This document shows, piece after piece, positions 19,313 through 54,665 of a stretch of DNA of 64,000 bases. This DNA is from Allacma fusca. Lineage: Eukaryota; Arthropoda; Collembola; Symphypleona; Sminthuridae. A model generated the notes under the pieces. The model was not told the origin of the DNA and did no database searches. It saw only the letters and a program-made list of their open reading frames with translations. The position numbers and the translations under genes are program-made. The first letter of the stretch is position 1, and each line of letters starts with the position of its first letter. The DNA lies in contig OX359246.1 of assembly GCA_947179485.1 (NCBI GenBank), forward strand, positions 16,368,001-16,432,000. Direction: 5' to 3'.

Positions 19313-19559
19313 TCATTTCCCTGGAAATGTAAAATTTGCATTTAACACCATAATAGATTAATTCAAATAAATCGTTTCAGAGTGCCCCAAATTGATAAAA
19401 ACACTTACCATATCCGTATCCTCCACGGTGTCCACCGCCACCACCACCTCCATGTCCGTACCCGCCATAGCGCCGGCGGTAACCCGCCTCAGTTTGGGAG
19501 ACACTCAGAGTGGCCACAACCACGAACAAAAGGAAAGCAGCAATTTTAGCAAAAGCCAT
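19313..19559 (-). CDS. Secreted Gly/Tyr-rich peptide precursor, copy A
   Basis: Exons 19559-19409 and 19320-19313 give 52 aa. Residues 1-25 are a classical signal peptide starting MAFAKIAAFLLFVVV and ending SQTEA. The predicted mature peptide is about 27 aa: GYRRRYGGYGHG, a run of Gly, then HRGGYGYGK. The intron splits the penultimate Gly codon, and the 8-nt coding part of exon 2 adds only Gly-Lys-stop. A terminal Gly-Lys is the usual signal for Lys removal and C-terminal amidation, giving a Tyr-amide. The precursor resembles small Gly/Tyr-rich antimicrobial or neuropeptide-like peptides of other ecdysozoans, but I cannot name an ortholog. It is on the opposite strand to copies B, D and E. 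Confidence 0.75.
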
Positions 19560-20862
19560 TGTATTTCAGATTTTCGGGGGTTTTCCAAAGAAAAATGAAG
19601 GAATGTTGTTGTTGATTGAAAGATTGAGAGCTGAATGATGATTTGGACTGAGATTGATCTCGAATTTAAACAAAATGCTCCTCTCATCCAGTCCCAGAAG
19701 TCCCCTTTCCTTTCTCCTTTCAAAATAAACCCAACTGAAAAAAAAATACATTTAATTAAAATAAAATTTGACTCCAATTCCAAGCCTAAAAGACACTTAA
19801 AAAATAGGACGCTCATAGAACCCCAGAGGTTCAATGACCCATGGCTTCACATATCAGAGACGTTAAATTAAAATCTGTTCGTCCTGTAAAATATAGTGAA
19901 GGATATAGAAATAGTGTCAAAAAATTAGAGCCCAAATGAGAGAATAATTAAACTATGACTAAATACCTCATCAGACATTTGCGCTCCAATGGGTCAAGCC
20001 ATTTGTCCCAAATCATGCAAATAATCCTTTGAGCTATGGACTAATAGGCTGGCGGTGTCTCACACGTCCCTGTCATTGCTCATGTATGACACCAGACAGA
20101 TTTACCCCTCCAAGAGAGCTATAGTATACTACGAATGTGTTAGGATTTCAATGAATTGTTTGACACATTAAGAAGATCTTGAGGTTGGATATATTTTGTA
20201 TATGGGCAATGATTGAAACTTATGAGATTATATAAGCGCCACTAACCTACCTTCATTCACGTGCCATTACAAAAGGAAAAGCTTGAGGTGTATTTACAAG
20301 TCACTTCCGTGTACTCACTATTTTTGGGGTCTCAAATTTTACCTCAGACTTGGAGAGATTGGAAGGGATACTATTTCGAAAAAAAAACAAACAAAACCTG
20401 CTGAAAGTGAATTAGGTCTCCGTTTTGGTTGATTTGTGGAGATAGGAACGATTAGTTCCGATTGAGGTTTTTTTCCCTCAAAGTGTACCAACGCACTCGA
20501 CAAACCACGCAATGCACGTCACAATAGGGGACTGTAAATGTCACTTTTATTAGCAGGGTCTTACAATGAGGATCAAAAAGCAAGAGTGGACGCAGACCAG
20601 AAAACAGGTGAGACTGCAGAAATAATATGAGGGTAATAAAATTATAATAAGGGATTTTTAAGACTCCGTAAGGAAATAGCACATGTACACGCTTTTTATT
20701 CAAAATTGGGCTATATATTGCATCGAGTATCAGCTTGCCCCGGAGTCACTAAATGCATTTATGGAATTAACCCGTTTGACAATAAATACTTGTCGGTGTC
20801 AGTAACCTCAGAGTCTAGTGTTGGAAATTTGATTTGTTGACTACTGTTCGATGACCACATTG
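19560..20862. other. Intergenic sequence between divergent peptide genes A and B
   Basis: It contains the promoter of copy A just above 19560, including CATCATTCA and CTCTCAATC (on the minus strand), which recur before copies B to E. From about 20450 it contains sequence also found upstream of copies D and E, including the shared 20-mer at 20607. Open frames here are short and unsupported. Confidence 0.5.
20607..20626 (+). promoter_or_regulatory. Conserved 20-mer upstream of peptide gene B
   Basis: GGTGAGACTGCAGAAATAAT lies 521 bp before the start codon of copy B. The identical 20-mer lies 515 and 503 bp before copies D and E. Flanking sequence between B and the D/E pair is otherwise much more diverged, so this short block may be a cis-regulatory element. 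Function is inferred only from conservation. Confidence 0.4.
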
Positions 20863-21768
20863 TAAAACCTATTTTTGGGATTAGCGAATCGATAAGTATG
20901 TAATTGCGTGCTCAACGATGCAGACGATAATTCCTGATCATCCGCACAATTCCAAGTGTTTCTATCCTGTAGCAGAAGGAAAGCATTAAAGAACATAAGG
21001 AATTTGTGGGAGTACAAAAATCCCAGCCGGCGCTGTCAAATTCATCATTCAACTCTCAATCACTCAGACAATAACAGCCTTCTCATATTTTGTGAGTATC
21101 TCGGAAAACTTTGACAAATTCGAAATAATGGCTTTTGCTAAAGTTGCTGCTTTCCTTCTGTTCGTGGTTGTGGCCACTTTGACTGTGTCCCAAACTGAGG
21201 CGGGTTACCGCCGGCGCTATGGTGGATACGGACATGGAGGTGGTGGTGGTGGTGGTGGACACCGTGGAGGATATGGATATGGTGAGTGTAGCCCAAAATT
21301 TGTTGGGGCACTTTGAGAATTTATTTTGAGGACCGAATTTTGGAACATTTTGAAATTTGGATTTTTAATAATTTTCCTATGATTTTAAAGGCAAATGAAC
21401 AACTATCCTGCAAGGCTCCCTGAGACTCCCACCGAAAACAGAGAGAAGAAGAGACAAGGAGGACAAAATGGCTGAAAGAAAATCATAGGAAAATGTACAA
21501 TCGTATTTTTGACGACGTATTTTAGTGAACAAAATTTTGTGATTAAGTCTCTGTCATGCACTTGCACTTTTGCTTGTATGTAATGTGCTTGTATTTTTCC
21601 CTCAGGGAAATGTCCTACATTCACATTTTTCATTTCTTATTTCTGTCTTGCTTTCTCTGTATTCCTTCTCTGACTATTTGAAAGATACTGTCTTCCTTTT
21701 GCACTGTCCTCTTTTCACAATGTACCTGAACTTTAAGTCAAATAAAATGAGTAAAATGTAACAGGAGT
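20863..21768 (+). repeat. Inverted segmental duplication, arm 1 (gene B)
   Basis: This segment from upstream of gene B through its polyadenylation signal reappears in inverse orientation at about 26245-27118 with gene C. The match covers the promoter (AACCTATTTTTGGGATTAGC), both exons, the intron edges and the 3' end (AATAAAATGAG). Ends are set by eye. Confidence 0.75.
21128..21398 (+). CDS. Secreted Gly/Tyr-rich peptide precursor, copy B
   Basis: Exons 21128-21281 and 21391-21398 give 53 aa. The signal peptide is nearly identical to copy A (one change gives ATLTVSQTEA). The mature region is GYRRRYGGYGHG, the longest Gly run of the family (eight after His), then HRGGYGYGK. As in all copies the phase-1 intron cuts the last Gly codon and the final coding segment encodes only Gly-Lys. 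A TATA-like TACAAAAAT near 21017 and an initiator-like TCATTCA about 30 bp later are shared with copies C, D and E. AATAAAATGAG near 21742 is the likely polyadenylation signal. Confidence 0.77.
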
Positions 21769-22703
21769 CCCTTATTTGCATGTCAGAGCCCATAATGACA
21801 TCCCAAAACTTACAATGGTCTCACACGACATATGTACATATGTAGGTGGAACATTAAAACTATAGCGTCTTACAATGGGAAAGAAACTTCCCATCATTTT
21901 AAACCTCACATATGAATAATTAATTATTTCAAATTGTAAAGGGACATTTTCGAAGAAATTGATTTCTTCTCTCTTTTGTTCGATGAGCATGGAATAACGA
22001 TTAATATTATTTCCATGAAAACAATTTGTTTGACCACATTGTCGTTTATTTTAAAAGTCAGGTCTCTAAAAAGGCGGGCGCCAATGCTGCGCCTAAATAC
22101 ATCTGGCCTTATTTGTGTGATGGAAAAAGTTATGAAACTACTTCTACTAAAAACATAATTGCTACAAATTCAGGTTGGAGCATCTATACAGTTTTAATAT
22201 TTTTATTAATTAAATGAATTTATTAAATAAAAATTTAATATATTATAAACGGGTTAAGCTTTCAAATCATAGTAATAAACAGTTTTTAAAAAAGATTGAA
22301 ACCTGGAGATCACTAACTGTTGATCGAAACCAGAACCTTAGTAGCCCTCGTCTTATTTGGGACTAATCAATGCAGGAAAAAAAAAATTAGGACTGGCTGC
22401 GTGAATGGTCAGTGACAGACTGAAGATTGATGTAGAAAATATGATTATTTTTTCTACTTCATCTGCTACTTGAAATACTGTCTTATTTGTTTATGGGAAT
22501 GAGATGGTTATCCATCCCAAAACCCATAACGCCCAACGGAGCAGCCATTTACAGTTTACAGTACAAGAGTTGAAATATTTCGATCAGTACGGATTGAATG
22601 AATGAATGAATTGATTAATTGAATTAATTATTGTCCGAACAACTGTTATCTTTCGGTTAACATTACGTTTTCAGTAGGGAGCAGACATGTCCAGCCTTCA
22701 AAG
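21769..22703. other. Intergenic sequence with one possible upstream exon
   Basis: Mostly AT-rich. A stretch at about 22055-22172 reads SQVSKKAGANAAPKYIWPYL onward to ATNS. It is flanked by an AAAAG acceptor and a weak GTTGGA donor, and would join in phase to the exon beginning at 22670. It could be an upstream exon of the small gene at 22704. Confidence 0.3.
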
Positions 22704-23095
22704 ATGGATTCATTGAAAACGGCTCACCAATTTTTCAACCCAGAGAAGGACTATGGAAGGAGGGCGGAAATTTTCTCGAAGGTTGTGGGAAGTCATCATA
22801 AAATTTGCCAAAAAGGGTAAGTGGTGGTAAATGGTAGTTAGAAGTTTGGACGTTGTTAAACTTTCATTCATGACATTCATATGTGACGGAGTTTAATAGG
22901 ATGACTGTGTGAGGCTTTGAATGGAATTCAATATTCAATTCCCTATTCTAACAAAATATATTGTTTTATAGCGTCTGGGTTTGTTATTTTACGGAAGGAG
23001 TTGTGGAGGAATTGTGTAATAAGGAAGGAACAATTAATTACCTGGTAACATACCCGATAATTTTCATCCACCTGGCGGATTTTTTAATTCAGTAA
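22704..23095 (+). CDS. Small hypothetical protein, at least two exons
   Basis: Exons 22704-22816 and 22972-23095 join in phase (donor GTAAGT, acceptor TTTTATAG) to 78 aa starting MDSLKTAHQFFNPEKDYG and ending HLADFLIQ. The first exon may extend upstream to an acceptor at 22669, and a further exon may lie at 22055-22172. The final CAGTAAGT also resembles a donor, so the real end could be later. Composition is coding-like and the phases agree, but I recognise no family. Confidence 0.35.
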
Positions 23096-23229
23096 GTTGT
23101 ACGATCGGTGCCTACTTTGGGTTCGGAGTTAAAACTCAGGGACTGATAATTATGCTTGACATTTCCAGCAGTGCTTGCCAAAGATGTACAACTGATTTAC
23201 CTATTCTACATTCTACCTATAAATTTAGT

Positions 23230-24779
23230 TTAGGGTGGGGGCCTTCCTTCTCGCATATTTGTGCAATTGTTAGGGCCTAAATCCTTGGCTACAAGAAGGC
23301 ATTTTTGCCTTTGTTTACATTTCTGCCTTGTATAGCATAACGGAAAGTTTTAGCCCCTTCCTACACTTCCATATATACTGTAGAAATAAATCATATTTTT
23401 ATTAAAATTCATAATCACATTTTGCCCTTTTTATTTTAGCAAATTTATTTTGAACATACAGCAAATAGTTTTGATAAAATTTAGACTATGCCCTCATATG
23501 GAACAATTATTCAGCAAACGCACTCCTACAAAATTAACGTTACTCATGCATTATATGAGAACTCCTGTTCCACGTTGCAGTAAGTATGAGTCATTGAGCA
23601 TGTTCTTCCAACATTTAAAAATCGTTTCGGTTTACATCAAAGGTGTCCACCTATCCTACATATAGGCCTATTTGTAGGCTATTTATAGGGTGCAAGGATT
23701 TTATTAAAGAGGCTTGTAGGCAAAATAGGGTGCAAGAATATACACTTAAAACCTAGCCTATAAAATAGGTAGGCTCAGCCGTTGTAGAATTATAGGTATA
23801 TATGTAGGCTATTGAAGCATGTCATCTTCATTTAATCGCATATTGAATGGACAAAATGAAAATTAAAGAATAATCCGCGCCCGGTACTTGCAAATTAATT
23901 TATGGGACGGTTCAAGCGTAAAAAATACGTGTTATCTCGCCTTGATATGTGCTGAAACCTCAGTGAAATTAAAACTTCTAACTATTCTGTAAAGTGGGAA
24001 CTTAAGGAAATCTTAAGTGCGACATCCCTTTTGACCAATGTTAAAATTTAGGAACTATTTTCGGCGTAAACCAAACCAATGCCCATATTATTTTGCTCTT
24101 AGGGCTTTGGCCAAGGTGACTAAACTTAAACTATTTTATTTCAACCTCATTTACTTGAAAAAGGATTTTTTATTTATTAGAGTAGAATGCTCCTAAATAG
24201 TCTGTCAGTTACGAAAAGCACATGAGATTTAGGAAGGGTGTAAAATTCGTTGAGCTAATTTGTCAGTGAAATGTAGGCTAATATGTAGGCTTGGTGGTCC
24301 CCATATAGGAAGGATGTAGGATAGGCTGATCTATTCGGCGGTTAAAATGTAGGCATATATGTAGGCTCGGTTCGAATTTTATAAATAGGAAGGATATAGG
24401 ATAGGCTGAGTCATTTGGACACCTTTGGTTTACATTGAGAAAAAACTTTCGTTTAGTGTGACAACATTTTTAAAAGCGTTGTATCTTTCTAATACTTTGC
24501 GTTAGAAGCCTGCACCCTACATAATATTTTCTATGTATACACATCCTATATAATATTATTTCGCTTCATACAAGCGTGTTCTCGTGCTGTCTAGATGTAT
24601 GTATGCCTACATGACGGCGTCACGGCGTGTATACAGGAGTGCATTTTCTATTTTGCAGCCTTTTTTCTGCAAAAACCAGTGCACCCTATTTTGCCTATAA
24701 TTTTTTCTGAAAATAGCTCGCACCCTATAAATAGGCATACCTACATGTAGGATAGGCGCGCGATGGGCTACCACTTTTG
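23230..24779. mobile_element. Older DNA-transposon-like element, interrupted by a later insertion
   Basis: The right edge carries a terminus whose reverse complement starts CAAAAGTGGTAGCCCATCG. The left part (GGGCCTAAATCCTTGGCTAC) and the right part match, in inverse orientation, the element at 56113-56915. That copy also has a terminus starting CAAAGGTGCTAGCC. Both carry the words ATGTAGGCCTATTTATAGG and ATAGGGTGCA. No transposase frame is visible, so it is non-autonomous. The left boundary is uncertain. Confidence 0.5.
23638..24427. mobile_element. hAT-like MITE, 790 bp, with 8-bp target duplication GTTTACAT
   Basis: The element starts CAAAGGTGTCCA and ends in its exact reverse complement TGGACACCTTTG. 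It is flanked on both sides by GTTTACAT (23630-23637 and 24428-24435). Both the 8-bp duplication and the CAAAG terminus fit hAT transposons (YARNG). The paralogous older element at 56113-56915 shows the uninterrupted site GTTTGTAT (minus strand, 56440-56433), which supports insertion. The interior is built of TAGGCTATTTATAGG and GTAGGATAGG words and has no transposase. Confidence 0.85.
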
Positions 24780-26244
24780 CTGCTGATTTTATTGTAGGAC
24801 ACTTGTTGGATAGCTCCCCTGAAAAATTGCCTACGAATGAACGGCAATAGAAGTTACAGAAAAATTTCCCCTGTCAACAAAACATTATATGTATTCCCGG
24901 CAATTCCCAAGACATTTCGACTTTACGTCATGTTCCTGAGGATTATGAACTCTAATGGAAGAATGAAAAACATTTTAAAAAATCCGAGAAAGAATGTATT
25001 CCAAAATCTGGAATTCGTAAACTTTTGTTATTTGTTGTTGCTTAAGTATGGACTAAGGGGAGAAATGATATGGGGGAAACGTAATAATGAATAATATTCA
25101 GGATTTGCTGGTTAAATAAATAGATACTTATAACTTCTCCTTCGGGTTCAAATATTATTTTATTCGGAGAATTTTCTCGTTTCAATGAGCGGAATAATTA
25201 TATAGTCGGTCAAACTTCGAGACACACTATTTGTGTGTATTCTTAATTCGAAAAATTACTGACTCGTCATGATGCAGCTAAATTTTTTAGAATACCACTT
25301 CAAGCCTGATTTAATTTGTAATGTCATTGAGGCTGTGGGAGCAAGCTCTAATCCAACAATGCGTATGTATGCAATTGGCATGTTTCAACTAGCTTTTATA
25401 TTACTAATGAATGCACAGCAAACGCAGAACGAGTTCTTTTAAAAATTGATAATTTTACAAAGCTCTACTGCTTCTAACTATAGTTAGCTGAGGTCCTGAT
25501 CGGTACAATTGTGTAGAGCTTTTTTAAAACTCAATTTCTTTTGAAATTATGAATTATTTCCATGGTTTTGCAAAAACCTTGTTGCTAAAACCCCTTTAAA
25601 TCCGGACTTGATGGGGCCTCAGTAGGTATGACGAGGGTCCTCATCAAATCACGACAACCAGCTTATCATGATATATGTATCTTGAGTTTTGTAAACTGGT
25701 AAATTGGAAGCTGATGTGGGAGGTTGGGTGGAGACTAAATTGCCTCCCATGAGCATTTAGTACAACTTTAAATCGGAATTCGCCCGGAGTAGTGTATATG
25801 AGACCGAATCCAACGAATAATTATACCTCGGTGAAAAAAATTGTTTGAGCCAAAATCCGAATTGATCATCGATAGAGATATATGATGACTCCCAGAAATT
25901 TCATTCCAAAATGGCAAGAAAAAAATCCTACTAAATCCTTAACGAAACTACAGATAGATAACCAGGATTAACGTTAATATTTGTTTTCATCGGACAAGGA
26001 GAGATTTTCTTAGGGGCAACTTATCGCATGCCTGTAGATCAGAATAACTCACAAGAAATCAATTTGTTTGTCAATCTCCCTTTACAAACTGACAGTAAAA
26101 CATTATGTGAGGTTTAATACGTTTTCAGTAGATATGCATTTGAGGTATGCGTTTCTATTGATGTGCCCACATTTATCCCATGAAACCACTATATGTATGT
26201 TTTGAGTTTTCATTATTTAGATATGGTATGAAGTAAATACGTGC
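24780..26244. other. Intergenic, no gene seen
   Basis: AT-rich sequence. The open frame at 24837-25094 is Lys/Asn-rich and lacks support. Confidence 0.4.
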
Positions 26245-27118
26245 TCATGTTTCATCTTACTCATTTTATTTTACTCCAAGTTCAGGTACAGTGCAAAAGT
26301 ATAAAAGGCAGTGCATACTAAAAGAAGTACAAAGAAAGTGAAAAAAAAATGGAATGGAGAAAGTGCGTGTACGACATTTCCCTGAGAGTACAACACACAA
26401 GAATATGTATACTGTATACACAAGTGAGAGTGTAAATACTTGACAGAGACGTAATCCCAAATCTTGTTCACTAAAATACTTCAAATACGATTGTACAATT
26501 TCCTACGGTTTTCTTCCATCCTTTTGCGTCCTCCTCGTCTCTCCTTCTCTGTTTTCGGTGGGAGTCTCAGGAAGCCTTGCAGTATAGTTGTTCATTTGCC
26601 TTTAAAATCGTAAATGATAAAAGAATGATTAAAGAAACAAACTTTAAAATATTTCCAAAATTCGGTTCTCAAAGTAAAATCTTAAAGTAGCCCAGAACTT
26701 TGGGCCTCACTCACCATATCCATATCCTCCACGGTGTCCACCCCCATGTCCGTACCCGCCGTAGTGACGACGACGGTAACCCGCCTCAGTTTGGGACACA
26801 CTCAAAGTGGCCACAACCACGAACAGAAGGAAAGCAGCAACTTTAGCAAAAGCCATTATTTCGAATTTTTCAAAGTTTTTCGAGAAACTCACAAAATATG
26901 AGAAGGTTGTTATTGTTTGAGTGATTGAGAGTTGAATGATGAATTTGACAGCGCCGGCTGGGATTTTTGTACTCCCACAAATTCCTTATGTTCTTTAATG
27001 CTTTCCTTGGGCTACAGGATAGAGCCACTTGGAATTGTGTGGATGACCAGGAATTGTCTGCATCATTGAGCACGCATTTACATATTATCGATTCGCTAAT
27101 CCCAAAAATAGGTTTTAG
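26245..27118 (-). repeat. Inverted segmental duplication, arm 2 (gene C)
   Basis: Read on the minus strand this segment aligns with 20863-21768 through promoter, gene and 3' end. It differs by scattered substitutions, small indels and a shorter Gly tract. It lies about 4.5 kb from arm 1 in opposite orientation. Confidence 0.75.
26592..26856 (-). CDS. Secreted Gly/Tyr-rich peptide precursor, copy C
   Basis: Exons 26856-26715 and 26599-26592 give 49 aa, the shortest of the five. The signal peptide matches copies A to E. The mature part reads GYRRRHYGGYGHGGGHRGG then YGYGK. It has the extra His after RRR seen in D and E, and only three Gly after GYGH. An in-frame upstream Met (MSFSKNFEKFEI) would extend it, but the homologous start used in the other copies is preferred. 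Gly-Lys-stop is again encoded after the intron. Confidence 0.77.
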
Positions 27119-28241
27119 AATGTAACTTTCAGACTTTATAGATATTTATACTAGGAACGAAAATAAATGCCTCCGCATTCTAAAGACTCTGAGACTACTG
27201 ACACCAACAGGAATTGTCAAACAGGTTAAGCTCCAAACTAGGAAAATGAAGTCGTACAACAACACACCAACAAATAAATTTTTTACCTTGGCATTGGCCT
27301 GGGCGGCATAGCCGTAAATGTTCCCCTGTCCCGTGTGTATACAAATCACGTAAACTTTCTCAGATCAGGATTCAGATGGCTCAGATTGTATTTTTAAAAA
27401 ATGTATGTAATTTCTATAATAATTATGTTTTATAATATATAATAATAATTATATACTATATGTAACTACATAATAAATATGAACAGATTATAAGTAGGTA
27501 CGTAATGATAGAGAATCTCCGCAGATTTCTGTCTATTTCTAATACACTGACATTTTTATGCTTGGGATCCTCCTGTTGCCTAATATTAAACGGATGAATG
27601 CTAGCCATGTGCTAAGGGTATTTGATCCCATCTTGCTGCTGCTAGAAATAAATATCCTTACTTAGGCAGTTTTGCTCTTGCAAAATTTGTTGAAAATTTT
27701 GTGTCATTTACATTTCCCCGACACTTGAGAATCATTGAAATACATGTATATAAGTCAATTACTGTAAGTCAATAGTTCTTCAGTTCTCGGATCACCACAT
27801 TCGCGTAATCATTATTGACTGACTCGAAATTCGGAAAAGCGATTGAAAGAATCCACAACGTCTCGCTCTAACACTCCCAAGTCACAGATTTGTTGGCAGA
27901 GTTGGCACATTCCGAGTTAAGAGCTTACTTCCGATTGTATAAGAATACCTCGAATACTGTCTCTCCTTGCCCTGTCATAGGGAAAGCTTCTATTTGATTT
28001 AGCTGCAGAAATACAATTTTTTCCCTATATCTCCCCACACAATGTGCCCAAACTGAACAATTGACTCAACGCAGACAAATAATTAATTCTTTGGGTATAT
28101 TTATTGCTCCTATGCTCCACATATCTACCTATGCCTAGATTTTAAAACAAACCCTCAAAAAAACTGCTAGCCACTTCACTTGGCTACGCTCTTGTGGCCA
28201 CAGGTGTGAAAGAACTTCCTATTGATTTGAACACCGAGCAG
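27119..28241. other. Intergenic, no gene seen
   Basis: AT-rich, with a TATAATAATTATATA-type tract near 27430-27470. No exon or RNA gene is supported. Confidence 0.4.
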
Positions 28242-28366
28242 AGCAATTAGTTCCGATCAATTTTTTCTGATAATGAGTGCACACGCAAGCCACAACGCTT
28301 GTAAGATTTTTATTGCGAGAGCGTACTTATATTTTAGGATTGAGAAAAGACCCAGACATCAGAGGA

Positions 28367-28386
28367 GGTGAGACTGCAGAAATAAT
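28367..28386 (+). promoter_or_regulatory. Conserved 20-mer upstream of peptide gene D
   Basis: Identical to the 20-mer at 20607-20626 and 38722-38741, here 515 bp before the start codon of copy D. Confidence 0.4.
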
Positions 28387-28772
28387 TTTGTGCGTGCGGA
28401 ATAATAGGTTGACGGCTCAATGGGATTATTGGATTATTTAACAGAAAACATTATGTCCAATAATCTCGCCCCAAATTCCAAATGCGTCTGCAGACATTAT
28501 TTCTTCTGAGTATTTTGACAGGAAATAATACCCGACAATTTCGGCTCCAAGCCGCTATACATGAGGATACACACCTACATAATTATATATATGGTCTCTA
28601 CAGATATTTAGTCTGACTTAAATCAGAACCTTACCTTTTGAACAAGCGTATCGGTGTTAAATCCATTCGAGAGCTCAATGATGCAGACAATTTTGATCAT
28701 CCACGCAGTTCTTTGAGCCCTAATCTTCCCTTGTGGGTGAAAGTATTGTCAAGCATATGGATTTTGGTGGAC

Positions 28773-28812
28773 TACAAAAATCCCAGGAGTCGCTCAGTAA
28801 ATCATCATTCAA
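28773..28812 (+). promoter_or_regulatory. Likely core promoter of peptide gene D
   Basis: CTACAAAAAT is followed about 30 bp later by ATCATTCA, an initiator-like block, and then by CTCTCAATC. The same arrangement stands before copies B, C and E. The TATA-like box and spacing suggest the start of transcription; this is inferred from conservation and position. Confidence 0.45.
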
Positions 28813-28881
28813 CTCTCAATCTTTCAATCAATCACATCTTTCAGTCTTCAGTTTTCGAATTTTCGGAAAATCTAATCTACA

Positions 28882-29153
28882 ATGGCTTTTGCTAAAATTG
28901 CTGCTTTCCTTCTCTTCGTAGTTGTGGCCACTCTGAGTGTGTCCCAAACGGAGGCGGGATACCGCCGTCGTCATTATGGTGGATACGGACATGGGGGTGG
29001 TGGTGGTGGACACCGTGGAGGATACGGATATGGTAAGCGTATTTATCATTTGGGTCAATTTGCAATTTTTGGAGGATCATATTTTGTAGGAATTAGTATT
29101 TTTTGGGTTTTTATTATTATTCGGAATTTTTTGATGAATTCAAAGGCAAGTGA
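28882..29153 (+). CDS. Secreted Gly/Tyr-rich peptide precursor, copy D
   Basis: Exons 28882-29032 and 29146-29153 give 52 aa. The signal peptide MAFAKIAAFLLFVVV to SQTEA is followed by GYRRRHYGGYGHG, six Gly in the central run, and HRGGYGYGK. The acceptor is AATTCAAAG and the terminal Lys codon is AAG, where A, B and C use AAA. The protein is identical to copy E except Ile for Val at residue 6. The frame read past the donor, which would give a longer hydrophobic tail, is intron sequence. Confidence 0.78.
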
Positions 29154-29814
29154 GAAGCTACTCCGTAAGATTTCTTGAGAGACCCACCGAAAAAAATGAA
29201 GGAGGAGAGCTGGCTAAGAGTGGAAGATTGGAGGGAAGATAGCCGCAAGAGACGATGTACAATCCTATACTTACACTTTAAATAAGTTCTTTAGTCATCA
29301 AAATTTTACAAGTGTAATCACAAAGTTTATTCAATTTTGCTTGAGTGTGACTCAAAATAATTAATTCATTAATTTCTGCCTTCTGTATCTACATATAGCT
29401 ATAGTAGTTTATTATTCTCTGCCTATATTCTGAAATCTTTAAATGTCCTCTTCTTTTCCTGTGTTTCATTACCTATGTATGTGTATAAGAATTCTGAATA
29501 AACAAGATCATTATATTTACAAATCTTGGATGAATACAAAATATTTTTGAAAAAGCATGCATTGGTGATCTCCCCACGGTAAGAGACAATTTGTGTTTGA
29601 ACTGCCGGCATAAAGACAATGTTCATGTAGACCCATAAGGGCAAAAATGTTTAAAGATATTTGCATCTAAGACTTCATTAAATTTTTTACTAAAAGACTA
29701 GAACATTCCACAGAAAATAGAGCCAAATTTATAGCTCGTTTTGCCTTATATTAAGGATCTATTAAAATTATAATGGTCTCTCTAGGATCTAGGGAAGCGC
29801 AAAGGTACAAAAAC

Positions 29815-30030
29815 TTGGTTCCTGTTCCTGAACACGAACCCATAAATACAGGTACAAAATTTCTGTTCCTGTACCTATGCTAAACTTTTGCAGGTACAAA
29901 TTTTTCGTTCCTGTACCTGTTCACACATCCAAAATCTTGTACCTGTTCCTGAAAAGTACCCAAAACGTGTACCCATTCCCAAAAGTTATGCAAGTACCCA
30001 GGTGCGTCCCCGGGTACTTCAGTTTAAACA
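29815..30030. repeat. GGTAC/GTACC word-repeat block
   Basis: Many copies of GGTAC, GTACCTGTTCCTG and GTACCC in both orientations make up this block. It resembles the interiors of the delimited hAT-like elements in this window, but I could not find matching termini or a target duplication, so it may be a truncated copy. Confidence 0.5.
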
Positions 30031-30226
30031 TATGAATTTAAGCTAAACGTTTTTTTACTATTTTTTTGCTTTTCAATGTTTTCATTGAAATAATTTCATT
30101 GTTCCTGCATATTTTGTACTATAAAATAATTATTGTAACGTAACTTGTTTATTACTTTTAAGGGCGGGAAAGCTTTTTGTAAATGACTATAGATTATAGA
30201 ACCAGTATGAAGCCCTGTCGTGGAGA

Positions 30227-31683
30227 CAGTGCCTGTCATGGGAACGGGTCACACCCGGGTGTTTGGGTGCAGGAACGGGAACGGGTATCATATGGGTGCA
30301 AAATGTTTTCACCCAAAAGTGTGGGTACAGGTTTGGGAACCAACCTTTCCCATTATAGTATGTGGGAACAGGAACCCATATGGGAACGGGTGCAATACAG
30401 GCTGAATGGGATCTGTACCCAACAGGAACGGGAACGGTATGCTCAAAAACCCGTTTCTGTTCATGCGTACCCGTGTACAGAGCAATCTTGCGAGCTTAAC
30501 GATAATTACATGATTGATTTGTTTTGGTGTGGTGTGACCGACTATTTTTGTGTCGTTGTTGTAGTTTAGAGGCAAACGCTCTTTGTTTGAACAGATCATA
30601 GGAATGGGACTGTTCCGGAATGTTCCAGGATTTCTTGGAATGGTCTGGTCCTTGAGCCTGGACCAGACCATTTGATCTGTTCTCCGTGTAGGACCAGGAC
30701 CATATGGTCTTTTAGACTGTAGGATCGGAACCATCTGGTCCGTACAAATTGCTGGAACAGGAACATATGTTCTGTTCCTCAAAATAACTCGGACCAGACC
30801 GGAACAGAACAGACCAGACCACTAGGACCGAATAGGTTTATAATATGATCACAACATGCAAGCATTTGACAATTTAGATACATTTTTGAATAATCGATCG
30901 TATCATGCTGTACAATCTAGCAATGCTATTCTATTCGCGGGAATTGGAAATACTTAATGGTCATCTACCGAATCTGGTCCGACCATTTGAAATACATGCT
31001 GGAACGTTCCAAATGGTCTGGGCCAAACAAAGGACCAAACATTCTGGTCTGTTCTTTGAGCTGGACCAGGTTTAATTGGTCTATCAAGGTTCTTGGACCA
31101 GGTACATTTGGTCCTTTCGTAACCAGGGAACAGACCGGAACAGACCATGGAACAGACCAGAACGGACCAAAATTTCTGGTCCGGACCAGAACAGTCCCAT
31201 TCCTAACAGATCATCCCACGTCGAATGATGAAATGTGACAATAAAAATTAATTATATGCGTATGTTGTGCTTAGCAGTTGTAAGGTGACTTAAAAATTAC
31301 AAAATTAATTAAGTAGAATGAAATATAACAAATAGAATGAGTGGAATTGTGTGTATCCATTGTTAGCAAAAATTGAAACAATAAGTATATATGTATAATG
31401 CATAACTTTTATCCTTGAATATATGAACTTCCGTTTCGGGTACGGGAACGGGTTCCAGGGTTTTGGGTACGGGTTTGGGTGCACCCAAAATTAATTTTTG
31501 GGAACAGGAACGGGAACGGGTTTGGGTGCTATAATTTTAAAAATTTCGGGTCTGGGTGCGGTACTTCTGTTCACAAGATTTCGGGTGCAATTTGGGAATT
31601 GGGTTCTGCCTTGTACCCAAACCCGAACTGTGGGAACGGGAATGGGAACGGGGACGACTTTTCTGTTCCCATGACAGGCACTG
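30227..31683. mobile_element. hAT-like element, 1457 bp, GGAACGGG words, target duplication CGTGGAGA
   Basis: It begins CAGTGCCTGTCATGGGAAC and ends with the exact reverse complement. CGTGGAGA flanks it on both sides (30219-30226, 31684-31691). The CAGTG terminus fits the hAT YARNG rule. The two arms are dense arrays of GGGAACGGG, GGGTGC and GGAACAGG words. No transposase is seen; the open frames here are products of the repeats. A second element (30599-31205) is nested in it. Confidence 0.85.
30599..31205. mobile_element. Nested hAT-like element, 607 bp, GGACCAGA words, target duplication ACAGATCA
   Basis: It starts TAGGAATGGGACTGTTC and ends with the exact reverse complement, flanked by ACAGATCA (30591-30598 and 31206-31213). 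The interior repeats GGACCAGACC, GGAACAGACC and ATGGTCTG in both orientations. It lies inside 30227-31683 and is therefore the younger insertion. Confidence 0.85.
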
Positions 31684-31807
31684 CGTGGAGACTTATTGTA
31701 TGTGTAAATCTTGCGCGCTTATTTTAAGAGTATCGCAGACAGGTTTGCGCTCGTTAAAAATAAGGATTGTTTTCGCACAACACAGAACGTGCTGAAATTA
31801 AGGTGAG

Positions 31808-32083
31808 ATGAGACAGATCAAAATAGATGAAATACTTGAAGATTTTTTTAAGTTTGTCCAAAATCCTGCAGACTGGATGATAAAGTTATTTCCCGGCCTG
31901 CCAATGTTGCCTCAAATGGAATTAAATTTCCTCTCCACCTGCCCAACCAACTTGTTTCCCATGTTAATCAGGAAACTACCTTTTGGGAAGGAAATTAACG
32001 ACAGTGTTTCAGCCTCCCAGAATTGTATTATTATTGCAACCATTGATCTTCAACTGATTTTCACTATACGTTTGTTTAAATAG
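31808..32083 (+). CDS. Doubtful open frame of 91 aa
   Basis: The frame starts MRQIKIDEILEDFFKFVQNP and has a coding-like first 70 residues, then a hydrophobic intron-like end. A second short open piece near 32203-32260 (QLVCPEGSLTRESCWGSS), between a GGCAG acceptor and a GTAATT donor, and frames at 32267-32576 may belong with it. I cannot build a consistent chain and recognise no family. It may be a decayed gene. Confidence 0.2.
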   Translation: MRQIKIDEILEDFFKFVQNPADWMIKLFPGLPMLPQMELNFLSTCPTNLFPMLIRKLPFGKEINDSVSASQNCIIIATIDLQLIFTIRLFK

Positions 32084-32580
32084 ATAATTGTAAGTTAGAA
32101 CCAGATGGTAAACAATGCTCACTATAGTGAAAATGTTTCGAAATACAACACTGTTCATCCAATTAAATTCACTCTTACAATATGATTGTTTACACAACGG
32201 CAGGTCAGTTGGTATGCCCTGAGGGGAGCCTGACCAGAGAGTCGTGCTGGGGCAGTTCAGGTAATTATGTTTAAAGATTTCTGGTCTGACCTGATCCAAA
32301 ATATTGGGTTAACTTCCAGGGTTTGGCAAAATTTGAAACAGTCCATTTCAAATGATCCAAATGCTCACACAGGAACCCAACCTATTGCCAGTCTGGCCAC
32401 ATTTACTTCGTCAAGCTGGGACCATTCAAATGTTTCCATACATGATCACACGTGTGTTGGGACATTACCTATCACAATTTGCAGTCATCGAGATACCGAA
32501 CCACTATTCTGTCATTGACTATCTATTTGTAGAGGTGATTCAGATGACAGTGATGCCGAGAAGAAGTTCCCAATAGGCTC

Positions 32581-33080
32581 TCAAAGAATAATTAATTTTA
32601 TAAAAACTACTCGAAGTTGCTTTTGAAAATATACGAAGCTCTTTATTCTTTTAAACGGGAACCACGCCGTTCATGAGGAGCATGCAATACTCTCTCCTCT
32701 AAATCCCACAAACAACTCTGCTTTTCTTCTTTCCTCATCGACATCTCCAACCTTCCAGAAGCCTACACTTCTTACCTCTTGACCCATTCACTCATCAAGT
32801 CTCACATTAATTTCCATAAACGTACAAGTTAACACCCAACCCCTAACTACTCAGCAAATCTCCGCCTTTGCAGGCTCTTGACACACACAGAGTGACAACC
32901 TACAGCTGTAACTCACTCAACGCTTACAAACTACATATTGACGCAGTGATGACCTATGTTGACGGTTATGAACCTATTGATGCTACAATCACACGAATAA
33001 AATTACAATTACCCGACTAATGTCACGCAACTGAAAACATTACCAACCCAAATAACCAATTCATCGACCGATGTGAACAC
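32581..33080. other. Intergenic, no gene seen
   Basis: Noncoding-looking sequence with a CT-rich stretch near 32690-32760. Confidence 0.4.
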
Positions 33081-33094
33081 ACTAGAGCTTCTAT

Positions 33095-33440
33095 TGGGGA
33101 CAAAATTCCTGTCCCGTCCCGATATTTTTCAAAACCTTTGTCCCCAGTCCCGTCCCGATATTTTTCAAAACCTTTGTCCCCAGTCCCGTCCCGACAATCG
33201 GGACACGGTGACAAAATCCATGTCCTCGTCCCGTCCCCAAACACTTAAAAAATCGTTGTCCCCTGTCCCGTCCCGAAAGTCGGGACATGGGAACAAAACC
33301 CATGTCCCCGTCCCGTCCCCAAAATTTTTAAAAAAGTTGTCCCTGGTCCCGACCCGAATATCGGGACATGGGGACACACACGTTGTCCCCGTTCCGTCCG
33401 CAAAAGGTTTAAAAAACGTTGTCCCCGGTCCCGAAAATCG
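33095..33440. repeat. GTCCCGTCCCGA word-repeat block
   Basis: This block is built from GTCCC, GTCCCGTCCCGA, TCGGGACA and AAAACCTTTGTCCC units, some as near-exact 40-bp direct repeats. It belongs to the same class as the other word-filled elements here, but no paired termini were found. The open frames across it on both strands are by-products. Confidence 0.65.
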
Positions 33441-34153
33441 GATTTACACAAGATTTAAAAATTCGTATGAATATAATTCAATGCAATGACTTTCAGTATA
33501 GTAATATTTATAGTAATCTATTCAAGGTTTCATCTATTAAGGATATTCAATCTACAAGATATAACTAATGGAATGAATGAATACCAGTCTTACCTTCATT
33601 TATCCGTCGGTACAATTCTGTCTGGCACTCAAAGTATGCGAATAAATTTGACGAAATATGTACAGCCGATAAAAAATGTTGACAGTCAATAAGCAATACA
33701 GTTGAGATAGGTAACATTTTCCTGGGATTTTTATGAAATACACTGAAGGGATTGCTGTAACTCTTTAATCCGTCTTTTCTGGGCATTTTAGCGACGAAAT
33801 TAAAATAACAACTGTAATGTTGCACCTGAAATTAGAAAGTAAAAAGAGTACGGAAAATTCAGCTTTGCTATGTCGCTTCCAACTTATAACTGATATGAGG
33901 CCAGAAAATTTCACCATGGCATCTTAGTAATTCGTTAGTATTATTACGACTACAAAAATACATGCTGAACCGTTACTCAGTTATATGGAATGCACCCAGT
34001 CACCATGATTCATCGATATCTTGGTCAAATGAACTTGTAAGGTCTATTGAAAACTATTGAGCTAACAGGTTATTTAACTGCATTTTTGTGACATTACATT
34101 ACCACATGACCGAGAGAGACGTCAATTACTAGCTGCGTTTTCGAAGTTTGCCA

Positions 34154-34483
34154 ATGAAATCCTGTAGTGTGAGTGGGGCGGATTTGAGTTCTTTCTTAAC
34201 TAGAATCAAGGGCTCATTCGGAAGCAGCAATTCACAGGTATTATCTATGCATGGGCATATTGAAGGGGATATTGAAAAAACAGGAAAAATTGTACCACTG
34301 CTTCAAATATTCGTGACAGGGCAACTGCGAGAGGAGACAGAGGAACAGGCAAAGCTCTTACGGGAGCCGGAAGAATCTGAAAAAAAATCAGCACAGCACC
34401 AATGTGATAACTTCATGGTACTTGCTTCAATGGCAGGTGCATTTGTTTTCTTCGCAGTTCAAATAGTGCTTCTTAAAATCTAA
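34154..34483 (+). CDS. Hypothetical 109-aa protein with a C-terminal membrane anchor
   Basis: A single open frame starts MKSCSVSGADLSSFLTRIKG. It has a charged middle (LREETEEQAKLLREPEESEK) and ends in a 24-residue hydrophobic segment, NFMVLASMAGAFVFFAVQIV then LLKI-stop. That layout is typical of a tail-anchored protein. A stop lies in frame at 34130, so the ATG at 34154 is the only start. No family is recognised and the frame may be chance. Confidence 0.3.
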   Translation: MKSCSVSGADLSSFLTRIKGSFGSSNSQVLSMHGHIEGDIEKTGKIVPLLQIFVTGQLREETEEQAKLLREPEESEKKSAQHQCDNFMVLASMAGAFVFFAVQIVLLKI

Positions 34484-34779
34484 ATGTGTAACCACGTTAC
34501 GATTTACCGTTAGAGCTATTTCCTATACATTGTTTATTTCGATTGAACAAATGGCATGATAAATGTTTAACTTGTCCAAAATAAACCTTGTAATATTTTA
34601 TACGTGCATGCATGTACTTATGAGAATAATAAACCCACAATCTCCGTACGCACGTATGTATTTTATAATACAAGTAATCCATGAACGTGGTGACCCAATC
34701 AAAACCTCCAATTTCGAAGGTTCATAATTTAATTTGATACAGGTGTTAAAGAACAACTATGACTACCCCACAGAAATGT

Positions 34780-35345
34780 AACTTTTGTGACCTCTGGAGG
34801 TGTCGTCAGGCCAATTTTAAAATATGTCAATTAAACACTGTTTAGAAAGGAGTTTAGACCATTTAAAAAACTAAATTTGGATCAATTCAAATTTTGTACC
34901 TTGACCCTATATTAACTTTGGTGACGTCTGCACGTCACCTGGTCAGGACAATTCTAAAATATTTCAATTAAAGTGTTCAGAAATGAATTAGACCATTTAA
35001 AAAAACTAAATTTGTATCTATCCCAATTTTGTAGCTTGACACTACATTAACTTTGGTGACATCTGGACGTCACGTATTCAGGCCAATTCTAAAATGTTTC
35101 AATTCAACAGTGGTCGAAAATGAGTGTAGACCATTTTTAAAAAACTAATTTGTATCCATTCCAATTTTGTAGCTTGACCCATTATTAACTTTTGTGGCAT
35201 CTGGACGTCATGTGATCAGTCCAATTCTAAAATGTTTCAATTAAACAGTGTTCAGAAAAACATTTTCGTCATTTCAAAAAAAGTATTTTCTTGCTTATAA
35301 AATTTTGTTAGGTTGCCCCCTGTTATTTGGTGATGTTTTGAGTTC
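34780..35345. repeat. Tandem repeat, unit about 135 bp, four to five copies
   Basis: Landmarks such as TTAGACCATTTAAAAAACT, ATTAACTTTGGTGAC and AATTCTAAAATGTTTCAATT recur at spacings of about 134 to 139 bp. Copies are diverged. Each unit includes a dyad such as GACGTCTGGACGTCAC. Flanking bases to about 35470 hold further decayed copies (CCTCCGGAGGTCACC). Confidence 0.75.
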
Positions 35346-35470
35346 AAGCAGGCGGGCTAATACTCAAATGACAACTTTAAACATTAATGACGAGGTCTTT
35401 AAAGACATTTGTCTTTAAGTTTATGCTATTACCTTCTATTAACTGGCGTCCTCCGGAGGTCACCTAGGTT

Positions 35471-37750
35471 ATCGGACAATATTAAATTTAAATATTACTC
35501 GGGATATACCCAGAAGAAATCGACCTGTAAAATTTAGGGTTAATCGGTGGATATATGGCACGACAAATTATTTTACGTTGACACAGCTACCTACAAAATG
35601 TTTTTTGTAGGCAACTACTTACTGTGCGACTCAATTCCAACCATTTTTGGACCGATCGGAGACGTGCGAGATTTCTGCTGGAGTTAGCTGCGGGGGTTAT
35701 ACATTTGTTTTGAATGCTTTTAATATTTATCCAACGTAATCCAACAGCAAAAATAGTATCTGCATTGCCCGAATGCATTTTGTAGCCTTTGATATATTGA
35801 CAACGGTACTGCAAATTAACAATTCTGCAAATTCAATTTGTTTACTTTGCAAAGCTTCGGCGAGAAAGGAGAAAATCCCAAGAATCTGTATCGAAAATGA
35901 ATTCAAATTCCAGCGATGTCTTAAGAACTAATAGATTTAACCCTTTTTGAAGAAAAGCTTGGTGCCTTAAGGATTCCGTAAATTCCGGATAAGCCTGTTT
36001 TTATCGACAAGTAGCTTGGATTAAAATGCAATATCGTTAGTATTTTTAATCCGATAAACGTATTCAATAAAATTCTACATAGACTCCTTGAGAATCCTAT
36101 TACTATTCAGTTATTGTTTGTGCGAAAACTATTGAATCAGTGGCCATGCATGTTCGAAACTGTAGGGCCATTAACGGTTGATGAGGCTTGCAAATATCTA
36201 ACAACAATACTGCTATACATGCAGGATTTATTCTATCAGAATGTTGCGCTCGAGAAGTTTCGACGGCAAAGGTAGACTACATCGATAAAGCATTAGTTCA
36301 GTTGGGTTGAACTGAAGTCAGGTAAGAGTCGATAACGAACTCAATGAACATGTGAACTTAGACTTCACCAAATCGAGTGATGAGAACAGGAATTTATCAT
36401 CTAAAAATTATAATTCTGGTGTTGTAACAATGGTAGATATGGCTTTGACCACAAATTAAAATCCTGGTGACGAAGAGACCGATGTTGTCGGCAATGAAGA
36501 AACATTTTAGCAAAACAATAATTATATTCACGGCTACAAATACCCTCTTGGTGAAGGAAACAAAACAATGCCTTTATTTGGAGATTCTAATTTTGAGTTG
36601 CTTTCATCTCCCACAATTTACTGAGAAATACCACTTTCTGTTCGTGCAAATATTAAACACGCCGACAGATGAAGCTAAATTTTGACTTCTGTCATTACGC
36701 CCGAAGAGCTTGTGTTCCACCATATTTGTTACTTGCCTACAAATTACTTCAAGTGCCGAAAGTAAAAAATGCAGTGAGTATCAATTTGTGGTTTCTGCAT
36801 ATATTCGGAGTGTTTGCAAAATTTGGTGAATTTTCTAGGTGGGGAAGGAATTTTTACGGCCTTAGATCAAAGAGTTCCTGTGATTAAACCAGGTTTTCAC
36901 GTCAAGTGTATTTTCAAAACTTCATGATTTGTTTCGATATGTCGTGTTTTTTTTGAAATTTTGAAAACTGAAAAAGTAAATGCGTTGCACCATAGTCCGG
37001 GACCCAACAGGTCGTTTGCCGCTGGTCCGGTCGTAGTAAATTGTCGCGTGCAAGAGCCTGTCGTGTAACAAAATAAAAACGTGCAATTTCACAAAAGCGC
37101 TTCGCTTTAAAAATTTCCATGGTACATGAACGTCCGATCAATTTAAATCTAAGTCCGAGAAAGTGTACAATTTGAAAAATGGTTTCTGTTGCTTTTATGA
37201 GTGCGTATCTCGCTAAAAGACAACACAGTTTCTAAAGCGATTGTATGCCTATGCCAAGAGTTAAATTCGGGTTTGGTTATGCGCATATTTAATAGGAGCA
37301 GACAATGTTTTTGCAAATGTTTGTGGTCTATAATCATAATACAAATATTAAACCAACTACAATTTCACCAATAAATATGTTGTGACTGCCTAATATTGAC
37401 ACTTACTCAGGTTTTTCGAATCGCAGAAACTCGCCATAATGAAGGTAAAATCGAGCATCATATATTTGAAAGTGGTCAAAACTTGGGTGAAAAAGGTTTT
37501 GAAAAATATTTTGCAACATGGCGTAGATACACATGTTTGTTTAGAAGAAATATATTACTTACAAATTAAGTTTCATTGCAGTTTTGACAGAAAAATTCAG
37601 GAAGAAAACTAATTTAATTTCTGAAAATTAGGGGGGTCAGTGGTATTGCTTGTCCTTCCCAGACATTTTTTTAGGGGACAGTGTCCCTACTCACCCCATT
37701 ATTCCGCAGTGCCTGATTATAATGATCGACGTGTGGCTTACATCGGTCCG
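35471..37750. other. Intergenic, no gene seen
   Basis: No exon, RNA gene or element boundary that I can support. The open frames here are short and of noncoding composition. Confidence 0.4.
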
Positions 37751-37754
37751 AACT

Positions 37755-38215
37755 AGGTTGGCAACATAATTCATTTGGTTTACGGTTAAAATTTGTTTTG
37801 CTTCGGTCAATTTGTTATTTTCGTTGGTCAATTTTTTGTTTGCATCTCATAATTTTGTTTACAATGTTCATATTTGGGATGGAGTTGATCGTAATTGGTT
37901 TTTCGTCAGTCATACTTGGGTTTGCATCTGTCAAATGTTTATTTACATCGGTGCAATTTTAGCTCGCCTCGAGTGTCTTGCTTCCATAGGTTCAAATTGA
38001 GTTCCCTTCTGTCAAAATGTTTGTCCGAGTCAATAAAATTGCGGTCGCATCTGTCAAAAATATGTTCACATCGAACAAAATTAGGTTCGCATCGATCAAA
38101 ATCACAGTTACACTGGTCAAAATTAGGTACGCATTGTACAATATAACGGCCATAGCGGTCAAAATCAGTGTCACTGCAGTCAACATCATGGTCACATCGC
38201 TCTATATTAGGTTTA
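37755..38215. repeat. 21-bp minisatellite, about 22 diverged units
   Basis: Units of 21 bp resemble GGTTCGCATCGATCAAAATCA, with CATCnnTCAAAAT the best-kept part. Because 21 is a multiple of three, open frames survive on both strands and read as 7-residue repeats (IRFASIK, ITVTLVK on plus; ILTSVTV, ILIDANL on minus). These frames should not be taken as genes. Confidence 0.8.
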
Positions 38216-38721
38216 AAAAGTTTCTCACTGATTTGTATAATTCCGTACAGCTTGCATATGACAGTATAGGTAAAGACTGATGCCTTAATCTGCTAAGAAA
38301 TTTTCATTGAAATATGTGATGGACCCCTGTTGTAAGTATACGGCCATTTACTCAACATAGGAAATGCAGGAAACAATGAGGGGTTGACCCAGCCATGATT
38401 TATTTTTGACTCATTTGTTCGACCTACAGGTTTCAAAATTGGTATCTATGGACTGAATATATCCATGTTCCAGCACGAAAAATTTCGTTGCTGTGGTCAC
38501 CAAAATGTCTGCTAAATTAAATTTTTATATAGAAAAAATCTTTTCTGGTTACGCTGGCCATACGTTGGAATATACCATACGATGGGGCACAGCAATTAGT
38601 TCCGATCAAATTATTCTGATAATATTAGTGCACAAACAAGCCACAATGCTTGTAAGATTTTTATTGCGAGAATGTACTTACTTATAATGTAGAATTGAGA
38701 AAAGACCCAGACATCAGAGGA

Positions 38722-38741
38722 GGTGAGACTGCAGAAATAAT
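38722..38741 (+). promoter_or_regulatory. Conserved 20-mer upstream of peptide gene E
   Basis: Identical to the 20-mers before copies B and D, here 503 bp before the start codon. Confidence 0.4.
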
Positions 38742-39224
38742 TTTGTGCGTGCGGAATAATAGGTTGACGGCTCAATGGGTTTATTGGATTACTTAACAGA
38801 AAACATTATGTCCAATAATCTCGCCCCAAATTCCAAATGCAGGCATTTATTTCTTCTAAGTATTTTGACAGGAAATAATACCGGATATAATAATGTCGGT
38901 TCCAAGCCGCTATTCACGAGGATACACACCTATAAAGTTTCTATAGATATTTACTCTGACTCAAATCAAAACCTTACCTTTTGAACAAGCGTATCGGTGT
39001 TAAATCCATTCGAGAGCTCAATGATGCAGACAATTTTGATCATCCACGCAGTTCTTTGAGCCCTAGGCTTGCCTTGTAGGTGAAAGTATTGTCGAGCATA
39101 TGGGTTTTGGTGGACTACAAAAATCCCAGGAGTCGCTCAGTAAATCATCATTCAACTCTCAATCCTTCAATCAATCACATCTTTCAGTCTTCAGTTTTGG
39201 AATTTTCGAAAAATCTAATCTACA

Positions 39225-39496
39225 ATGGCTTTTGCTAAAGTTGCTGCTTTCCTTCTGTTCGTGGTTGTAGCCACTCTGAGTGTGTCCCAAACGGAGGCGG
39301 GATACCGTCGTCGTCACTATGGTGGATACGGACATGGGGGTGGTGGTGGTGGACACCGTGGAGGATACGGATATGGTAAGTGTTTTTATCATTTGGGGCA
39401 GTGTGAGATTTTTGAAGGATCATATTTTATGGGAATTAGTATTTTTCGGGTTTTTATTTTTATTCGAAATTTTTTGATGAATTCAAAGGCAAGTGA
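39225..39496 (+). CDS. Secreted Gly/Tyr-rich peptide precursor, copy E
   Basis: Exons 39225-39375 and 39489-39496 give 52 aa, matching copy D except Val for Ile at residue 6. The chain is signal peptide to SQTEA, then GYRRRHYGGYGHG, six Gly, and HRGGYGYGK. The terminal coding part again adds only Gly-Lys. The core promoter (CTACAAAAATCCCAG, then ATCATTCA) is present near 39114-39152. AAATAAATCC near 39626 is a probable polyadenylation signal. Confidence 0.78.
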
Positions 39497-40140
39497 GAAG
39501 CTACTCCGAATGGTTTCCTGAGGGCCTCACCGAAAAAAGCGAAGGAGGAGAGCTGGCTAAGAGTGGAAGATTTAAGGGAAGATAGCCGCAAGAGACGATG
39601 TACAATCCTATAATTTATTACACTTTAAATAAATCCTTTAGTCATCAAAATTTTAAAAGTGTAATCACAAAGTTTATTCCCTTTGGTTTGAGTTTGTCTC
39701 AACATTTAAATTAAAAGCCGTATACATAGTTTCTTATTCTCTACGTATATTCTGAAATCTTTATATGCCCCCTTCTTTTTCTGTATTTCATTAGATACCT
39801 GTGTATGTGTATAAGAATTCTGAATAAACAAAATAATTGTATTTGGAAATCTTGGAGGGCTACAAAATATTTTTGCAATAAGCATACATTGGTAATCTCG
39901 CTTCGGTAAGAGACATTTGCAGTTTGAAGTTTGAACTGTCAGCATAAATACAATGTTCATGTATTTATATATAAGTGCCCCATATATATAAGTGCAAAAA
40001 AATTTAAAGATATTCACATTTAAGCTTTCAATAATTTTTTTTTTGCGAAAAGACAACAACATTCCACAATAATTAGAGCCAAACTTATAGCTCGTTTTAC
40101 CTTATGTTGAAAGGAACTTTTAAAATAAATGGTCTCTCTA

Positions 40141-49320: not shown

Positions 49321-49680
49321 GCCTCACAATCCGAATAAATTGTGTTTCGATGAAGTTGTTTAAGAAGTTCAAATTCATGTTGGTTTATATGGTCTTTAAT
49401 ATTTTGAGAAACACATTCTAGGACGGATTACGAAATTCGAAATGCTACAGTACATTTTGAAGAAACAATCATCTGAAACTTGGTCAACCTCGGGCCACGT
49501 GTTGTTTGTTAAAGATGAAGGCCTTTAATTGTAAAACAACAAAAATTGAAACTGAAGTAGTTAAATTTTAACTGGAAAGAATGCGTGTACCCCCTAAATA
49601 TCAAGTATTCTTACGTCAAGTTACAAAGCTGTATGGATGTATTATTCGTGAGTTTATAAATTAATAATTATAATGTATTA
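48194..49680. other. 5' flank of carboxypeptidase alpha
   Basis: Bases to about 49320 recur as 53717-55078 before copy beta and should hold the promoter. No other gene is supported. Confidence 0.45.
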
Positions 49681-54479: not shown

Positions 54480-54665
54480 GGGACAATTACTTAAAGAGGT
54501 GGTGGTGTGACTGTAGAAATTAAAAGCCAAACGGCTTACGAATCAAGTCCTGTCTTAGAGACTTGTTGTATGCCTAAAGCATGCGCGCTTATATTAAGAG
54601 TAGCGCTTTACAGGTAGTGCTCGTTAATAAAAAGGAGTGCTTGGCATGCCACCTTTTGGGCATTG
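54480..54665. repeat. Interspersed repeat related to the flanks at 30140-31790
   Basis: It lies in a roughly 260-bp stretch absent from the matching place in unit 1 (near 48973). It shares TGCGCGCTTAT and AAGAGTA with 31710-31735. Two copies are visible in the window. It could be a short retroelement, but no clear Pol III boxes or tail are seen. Confidence 0.4.

Follow-up and report, generated by a model that had tools for sequence, protein, structure and literature searches.

Five clustered genes for a glycine- and tyrosine-rich peptide

We analyzed a cluster of five small genes in a stretch of 64,000 nucleotides from the springtail Allacma fusca (contig OX359246.1, positions 16,368,001 to 16,432,000; this whole stretch is referred to as the window). 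The genes, here named copies A to E, encode precursors of short Gly/Tyr-rich peptides that begin with a leader and end in Gly-Lys. Copy A lies on the minus strand at 19313..19559 (exon 1, 19409-19559; coding part of exon 2, 19313-19320); its intron of 88 base pairs (bp) has GT...AG borders, and its product comprises 52 amino acids with a Gly run of 7. Copy B occupies 21128..21398 on the plus strand (exon 1, 21128-21281; intron, 109 bp; coding part of exon 2, 21391-21398) and encodes 53 amino acids with a Gly run of 8. The shortest precursor, 49 amino acids with a Gly run of 3, derives from copy C on the minus strand at 26592..26856 (exon 1, 26715-26856; intron, 115 bp; coding part of exon 2, 26592-26599). 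Copies D and E are both on the plus strand, at 28882..29153 (exon 1, 28882-29032; coding part of exon 2, 29146-29153) and 39225..39496 (exon 1, 39225-39375; coding part of exon 2, 39489-39496), and each has an intron of 113 bp, a length of 52 amino acids, and a Gly run of 6. All of these coordinates, from ATG to stop codon with introns included, are exactly those of the original prediction, as are the precursor lengths of 49 to 53 amino acids and the Gly runs of 3 to 8; it was silent on strand. When the window was searched with copy E by tblastn, the five copies were recovered and the next match had an E value of 0.11.

The leader reads MAFAK(V/I)AAFLLFVVVATL(S/T)VSQTEA in all five copies and is followed by GYRRR(H)YGGYGHG, a run of 3 to 8 Gly residues, and HRGGYGYGK. 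It was assigned as a signal peptide by eye, on the basis of a hydrophobic stretch and the TEA preceding Gly. With cleavage after TEA, the amidated product would comprise 22 residues in copy C, 25 in copies A, D, and E, and 26 in copy B, which corrects an earlier figure of 23 to 27. The computed neutral monoisotopic masses for these amidated forms are 2438.139 (C), 2529.166 (A), 2586.187 (B), and 2609.203 (D/E); in the same order, they would be 2496.144, 2587.171, 2644.193, and 2667.209 for Gly-extended forms and 2624.239, 2715.266, 2772.288, and 2795.304 for forms that retain Lys. The computed isoelectric point before processing is 10.3, with 46 to 57% Gly and 18 to 21% Tyr; disorder would be expected of such a Gly-rich chain of 25 residues. 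At the protein level, differences in the mature part are limited to one His (present in C, D, and E) and the length of the Gly run, and the precursors of D and E are one residue apart.

The five genes spread by local duplication. A block around copy D (28238..29789, plus strand) matches 38587-40145 around copy E with 85.6% identity over 1604 aligned columns (about 1.55 kilobases [kb]), and a block around copy B (20857..21814, plus strand) has an inverted match, 27123-26194, around copy C with 80.6% identity over 984 aligned columns (about 960 bp). Copies A and B are divergently oriented with their ATGs 1,569 bp apart, as are copies C and D at a distance of 2,026 bp. This arrangement would fit duplication of a divergent pair in inverted orientation together with one further copying of D. 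Copy A is more distant, and its preference for D/E over B/C is modest, with intron identities of 66 to 70% and 44 to 56%, respectively. In the 5' stretch, 24 of 27 informative sites agreed with a grouping of B with C and D with E, compared with 4 of 10 for exon 1 (Fisher P = 0.005); with the intron added to the 5' stretch, the comparison was 37 of 46 against the same exon 1 count (P = 0.016), the sites in both tests not being independent. The conflict in exon 1 is suggestive of gene conversion between neighboring copies, and recurrent synonymous substitution within a stretch rich in Gly and Arg would likewise account for it. Upstream of the genes, TCATCATTCA (-80 to -86 relative to the ATG) and CTCTCAATC (-69 to -75) are common to all five copies (21042..21062 on the plus strand in copy B coordinates) and probably form an element near the transcription start. 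A tandem array with a unit of 135 to 138 bp in 3.3 to 3.7 copies (34806-35308) lies between D and E.

Selection on the peptide and its Gly-Lys end

Nonsynonymous divergence (dN) was 0 to 0.018 across all 10 pairs of copies, against a synonymous divergence (dS) of 0.134 to 0.468, the latter being rough since it derives from about 50 codons. The 11 ungapped codon columns that vary in the mature part do so synonymously without exception. In the leader, six columns are synonymously variable and two carry a replacement (V/I at position 6 and S/T at position 19). Outside the exons, identity in pairs with copy A dropped to 44 to 70% in the intron and 34 to 45% upstream, a value near 45% being about the expectation for unrelated sequence. 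Given the low dN relative to dS, the synonymous-only variation of the mature part, and the drop in identity outside the exons, the protein, including its Gly-Lys end, is under strong constraint. The RRR motif is kept in all five copies although all three of its Arg codons change synonymously. The two HG/HR points are fixed as well, as is the terminal Tyr-Gly-Lys, while the Gly run varies in length between 3 and 8.

A phase-1 intron of 88 to 115 bp splits the last Gly codon at the same place and in the same phase in every copy, and exon 2 contributes eight coding bases that specify Gly-Lys-stop only. The two strands of the window together contain 120 donor-like GTRAGY sites; for five of them, all belonging to copies A to E, AG|GN-AAR-stop follows within 60 to 130 nucleotides. 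Left unspliced, copies B and C would read Gly-Glu; their Lys therefore depends on splicing. Around and after its stop codon, copy A is 43 to 46% identical to the others, approximately the level at which unrelated sequence aligns here; its exon 2 nevertheless encodes Gly-Lys-stop, with GGG rather than GGC as the Gly codon. A C-terminal Gly and basic residue maintained by selection are what an amidation signal predicts, and Gly-Lys-stop occurs in five of five copies with both codons varying synonymously.

Low-complexity Gly codons could bring to mind a decayed or chance repeat instead of genes. The dN and dS values and the retention of exon 2 in five of five copies rule this out, leaving it next to no probability. 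Taken with the synonymous-only variation of the mature part, they establish that the five loci are real genes whose peptide and Gly-Lys end are kept by selection. The earlier description of five secreted-type Gly/Tyr-rich peptides with a terminal Gly-Lys thus holds for every copy.

Relation to known peptides and possible function

Searches of domain collections did not place the peptide in a family. Pfam gave no match for copy A and none above the cut-off for copy E, whose weak likeness to Fungus-induced protein (PF10917; 10.7 bits, E value of 0.69) falls short of the 24-bit cut-off. No cuticle domain exceeded the Pfam cut-off in E or A, a result that domainless cuticle proteins can still fit. 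Copy E had no match in NCBIfam, and in the PDB a single chain was listed for it, an alphabody with an insignificant E value of 4.2. The window had no match in Rfam. In bacterial and archaeal genomes, 591 stretches matched a pattern, and in viral contigs 63 did, with no confirmed relative among them; lack of such kin is expected for an animal gene and says little, eukaryote collections being outside this search. None of five exact motif strings of the peptide was found in literature text (figures and supplements not covered), and shorter strings had one match there, in an unrelated virus paper. Other motif-string matches were to PMC9658076 (NLP-31), a Hydra paper, PMC6780910, and PMC7017220.

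Parallels were nevertheless apparent. NLP-31 and the nematode nlp-29 cluster resemble the present peptides in their small size, secretion, basic character, and YGGYG motifs and, in the case of nlp-29, in being encoded by locally clustered genes made by duplication (PMC2453101). NLP-31 ends in YGGYGWGK, compared with GGYGYGK here; it is longer (53 amino acids as listed), contains YGGYGRG repeats, has Trp instead of Tyr before Gly-Lys, and is without a Gly run or His (PMC9658076). Of the nematode-type features, the leader and basic character are present in the springtail peptide and YGGYG occurs once, within YGGYGHG, whereas YGGWG and tandem repeats are absent. The nlp-29 cluster is under diversifying selection, the reverse of what the five copies display (PMC2453101). 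According to a 2019 review, nlps are not known outside nematodes (PMC6780910), and the cited nlp literature, as accessible, describes the group as being without direct tests of antimicrobial activity. The armadillidins of woodlice are likewise linear and cationic, with Arg, His, and Tyr and a Gly content of 45.7 to 58% in 16 of 17 rows (24.8% in the exception), and many share a GY/GH opening, an R-rich stretch, and a Gly-rich YG/YNG/YRG tail (PMC7017220). However, they measure 46 to 59 amino acids (129 in one case), are represented by a single gene in the transcriptome of nearly every species, carry 3 to 7 repeated GGGX motifs per peptide in place of a single Gly run of 3 to 8, and lack a Gly-Lys end in the 17 rows (PMC7017220). 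Serrulin, the acanthoscurrins, and the ctenidins are Gly-rich, cationic, and reported to be C-terminally amidated; serrulin differs in its 37 amino acids, its GGGF/GGGR repeats, and its amidated Lys (PMC6784228).

Alignment scores of the D/E mature peptide with eight published sequences were compared with those of 1000 shuffles each of query and target. The score of 76 with NLP-31, the one nematode sequence, was reached by 432 of 1000 query and 356 of 1000 target shuffles. For the six armadillidins tested, of 17, these counts were 339 to 723 and 179 to 923, respectively. Serrulin was the nearest of the eight (56 and 60 of 1000). Because shuffled sequences reach the observed scores, composition accounts for the likeness to seven of the eight sequences, and the likeness to serrulin is borderline. 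The original prediction had called the design one it did not know. In view of NLP-31 (PMC9658076), the armadillidins, in which Gly runs occur together with Tyr, His, and Arg (PMC7017220), and a scorpion Gly-rich peptide reported to be amidated (PMC6784228), this was partly wrong. On our reading, the peptide may work like these kinds, but membership in none of them is supported.

We consider it about an even chance (probability near 0.5) that the five genes are recent duplicates that form a lineage-specific family and encode one small, cationic, probably Tyr-amidated host-defense peptide. The precursor would enter the secretory pathway, and its signal peptide would be cut after TEA. A basic-residue carboxypeptidase would remove the terminal Lys. 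Once a C-terminal Gly is exposed by removal of a basic residue, peptidylglycine amidating enzyme converts it to an amide, and the predicted product is GYRRR(H)YGGYGHG-Gly(n)-HRGGYGY-amide, of 22 to 26 residues. It may be released at a barrier or by blood cells. Its flexible Gly/Tyr chain, which contains four Arg and two or three His, might bind anionic microbial surfaces or nucleic acid, and extra copies would raise the dose of one product, not its diversity. Cleavage, Lys removal, amidation, and the defense role are inferred. The defense reading is founded on a precursor anatomy shared by all five copies, the basic Gly/Tyr-rich makeup, the synonymous-only variation of the mature part, the retained Gly-Lys, and the Gly-rich defense peptides already known: cationic peptides of like size or makeup in woodlice (PMC7017220 and PMC5031766), Gly-rich peptides of a scorpion and spiders, some of them amidated (PMC6784228), and, in nematodes, six duplicated nlp genes of the Gly/aromatic-rich type, which as a cluster raise resistance to a fungus (PMC2453101).

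Several observations weigh against a defense role. The likeness to known defense peptides lies at or close to the level explained by composition. The paralogues stay undiversified here, whereas the nlp-29 cluster exhibits a non-silent excess in four branches (PMC2453101). A springtail survey of antimicrobial genes, homology based only, reports five families, and a peptide of this kind is not among them (PMC10051947). Within 800 bp upstream, strict kappaB sites occurred in A (at -27) and in C (at -717) but not in B, D, or E, with 0.15 expected per 800 bp. Regulation by immune pathways via kappaB or STAT sites was rejected as a candidate, there being no consistent sites across the copies. Near-identical copies fit dosage of one product, and this suits a structural peptide as well.

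A structural or surface peptide (cuticle coat, adhesive, silk, or egg shell), with Gly/Tyr repeats cross-linked via tyrosines and duplication meeting bulk demand, appears unlikely to us. The Gly/Tyr composition, the variable Gly run, and full conservation elsewhere in the mature part would suit a material, and tick Gly-rich proteins are reportedly cement components. However, the mature part is strongly basic and only 22 to 27 residues long, a bulk polymer would not need the retained Gly-Lys end, and the two copies scanned, E and A, lack a Pfam cuticle domain. We regard a neuropeptide or peptide hormone ending in GYGY-amide as quite improbable, although a single-copy precursor with leader and Gly-Lys end would accommodate it and the invariant ends could be the ligand, with the Gly run, variable among the five copies, as spacer. 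Receptor ligands do not usually have 3 to 8 consecutive Gly at mid-peptide or five duplicated gene copies, and a survey of known neuropeptide genes in non-pterygote hexapods names, in its accessible portion, no canonical arthropod neuropeptide of such design (PMC4770511).

These three readings leave part of the probability unassigned. Whether a prohormone convertase cuts at RRR is a separate question of processing. It would leave (H)YGGYGHG-Gly(n)-HRGGYGY-amide, 17 to 21 residues with one Arg and computed masses of 1749.751 (C), 1840.778 (A), 1897.799 (B), and 1920.815 (D/E), and is favored by the retention of RRR in spite of synonymous change in its codons. Furin-type sites have Arg four places before the cut; Tyr stands there, so the site is not furin type, and the leftover propeptide would have only five residues. 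We consider such a cut improbable.

Returning to host defense, we tentatively entertain, as unlikely though not remote, a broader version, in which the peptide belongs to an unnamed ecdysozoan GYGY-amide family, an independently reached arthropod counterpart of the nematode peptides ending in YGGYGWGK. RRR and the Gly-Tyr-amide end would be the active parts, the Gly run of free length a linker, and the copies would be kept identical by selection, perhaps with gene conversion. If so, a short leader, a Gly/Tyr chain, and Gly-Lys would be a recurring solution to barrier defense in moulting animals. A defense peptide of this kind would add a family that homology surveys miss because its sequence is low in complexity. 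Comparison of the five copies provides a natural test of which segments of a Gly-rich peptide are important, and with the predicted masses of the amidated products the proposed processing can be tested directly.

Neighboring genes and repeats

The neighboring genes fit an animal. In stop-free frames on the plus strand, there are matches to AMP-binding (8743-9153) and carboxylesterase (13471-13938) as well as C2H2 zinc fingers (41390-42859). An array of several M14 (pro)carboxypeptidase genes extends on the minus strand over 45850-63999, from 45.8 kb to the window end, and includes four C-terminal pieces, four middle pieces (one at the window edge), three propeptide pieces, and three leader-region places. 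B-type carboxypeptidases have Asp at the pocket residue; the aligned residue is Leu, Phe, Leu, and Val in the four C-terminal pieces, and PDB matches put the pieces nearest to carboxypeptidase A. As these genes look A-type rather than B-type, they are poor candidates for removal of the terminal Lys and were rejected in that role.

Two further open frames were noted. The first, at 1422-2546 on the plus strand, encodes 374 amino acids with an acidic composition, a leader-like start, and a strong codon score; its match to PF06771 is below threshold (15 bits, cut-off of 25). The other, at 15152-16030 on the minus strand, encodes 292 amino acids with a good codon score and is perhaps a divergent prenyl-diphosphate synthase subunit; it had no PDB match, and its score against a solanesyl diphosphate synthase model was below threshold (12.3 bits). 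Simple repeats of the GTCCCC and GTACCC types, at 33111-33433 and 58002-58367, open long reading frames that are probably meaningless.

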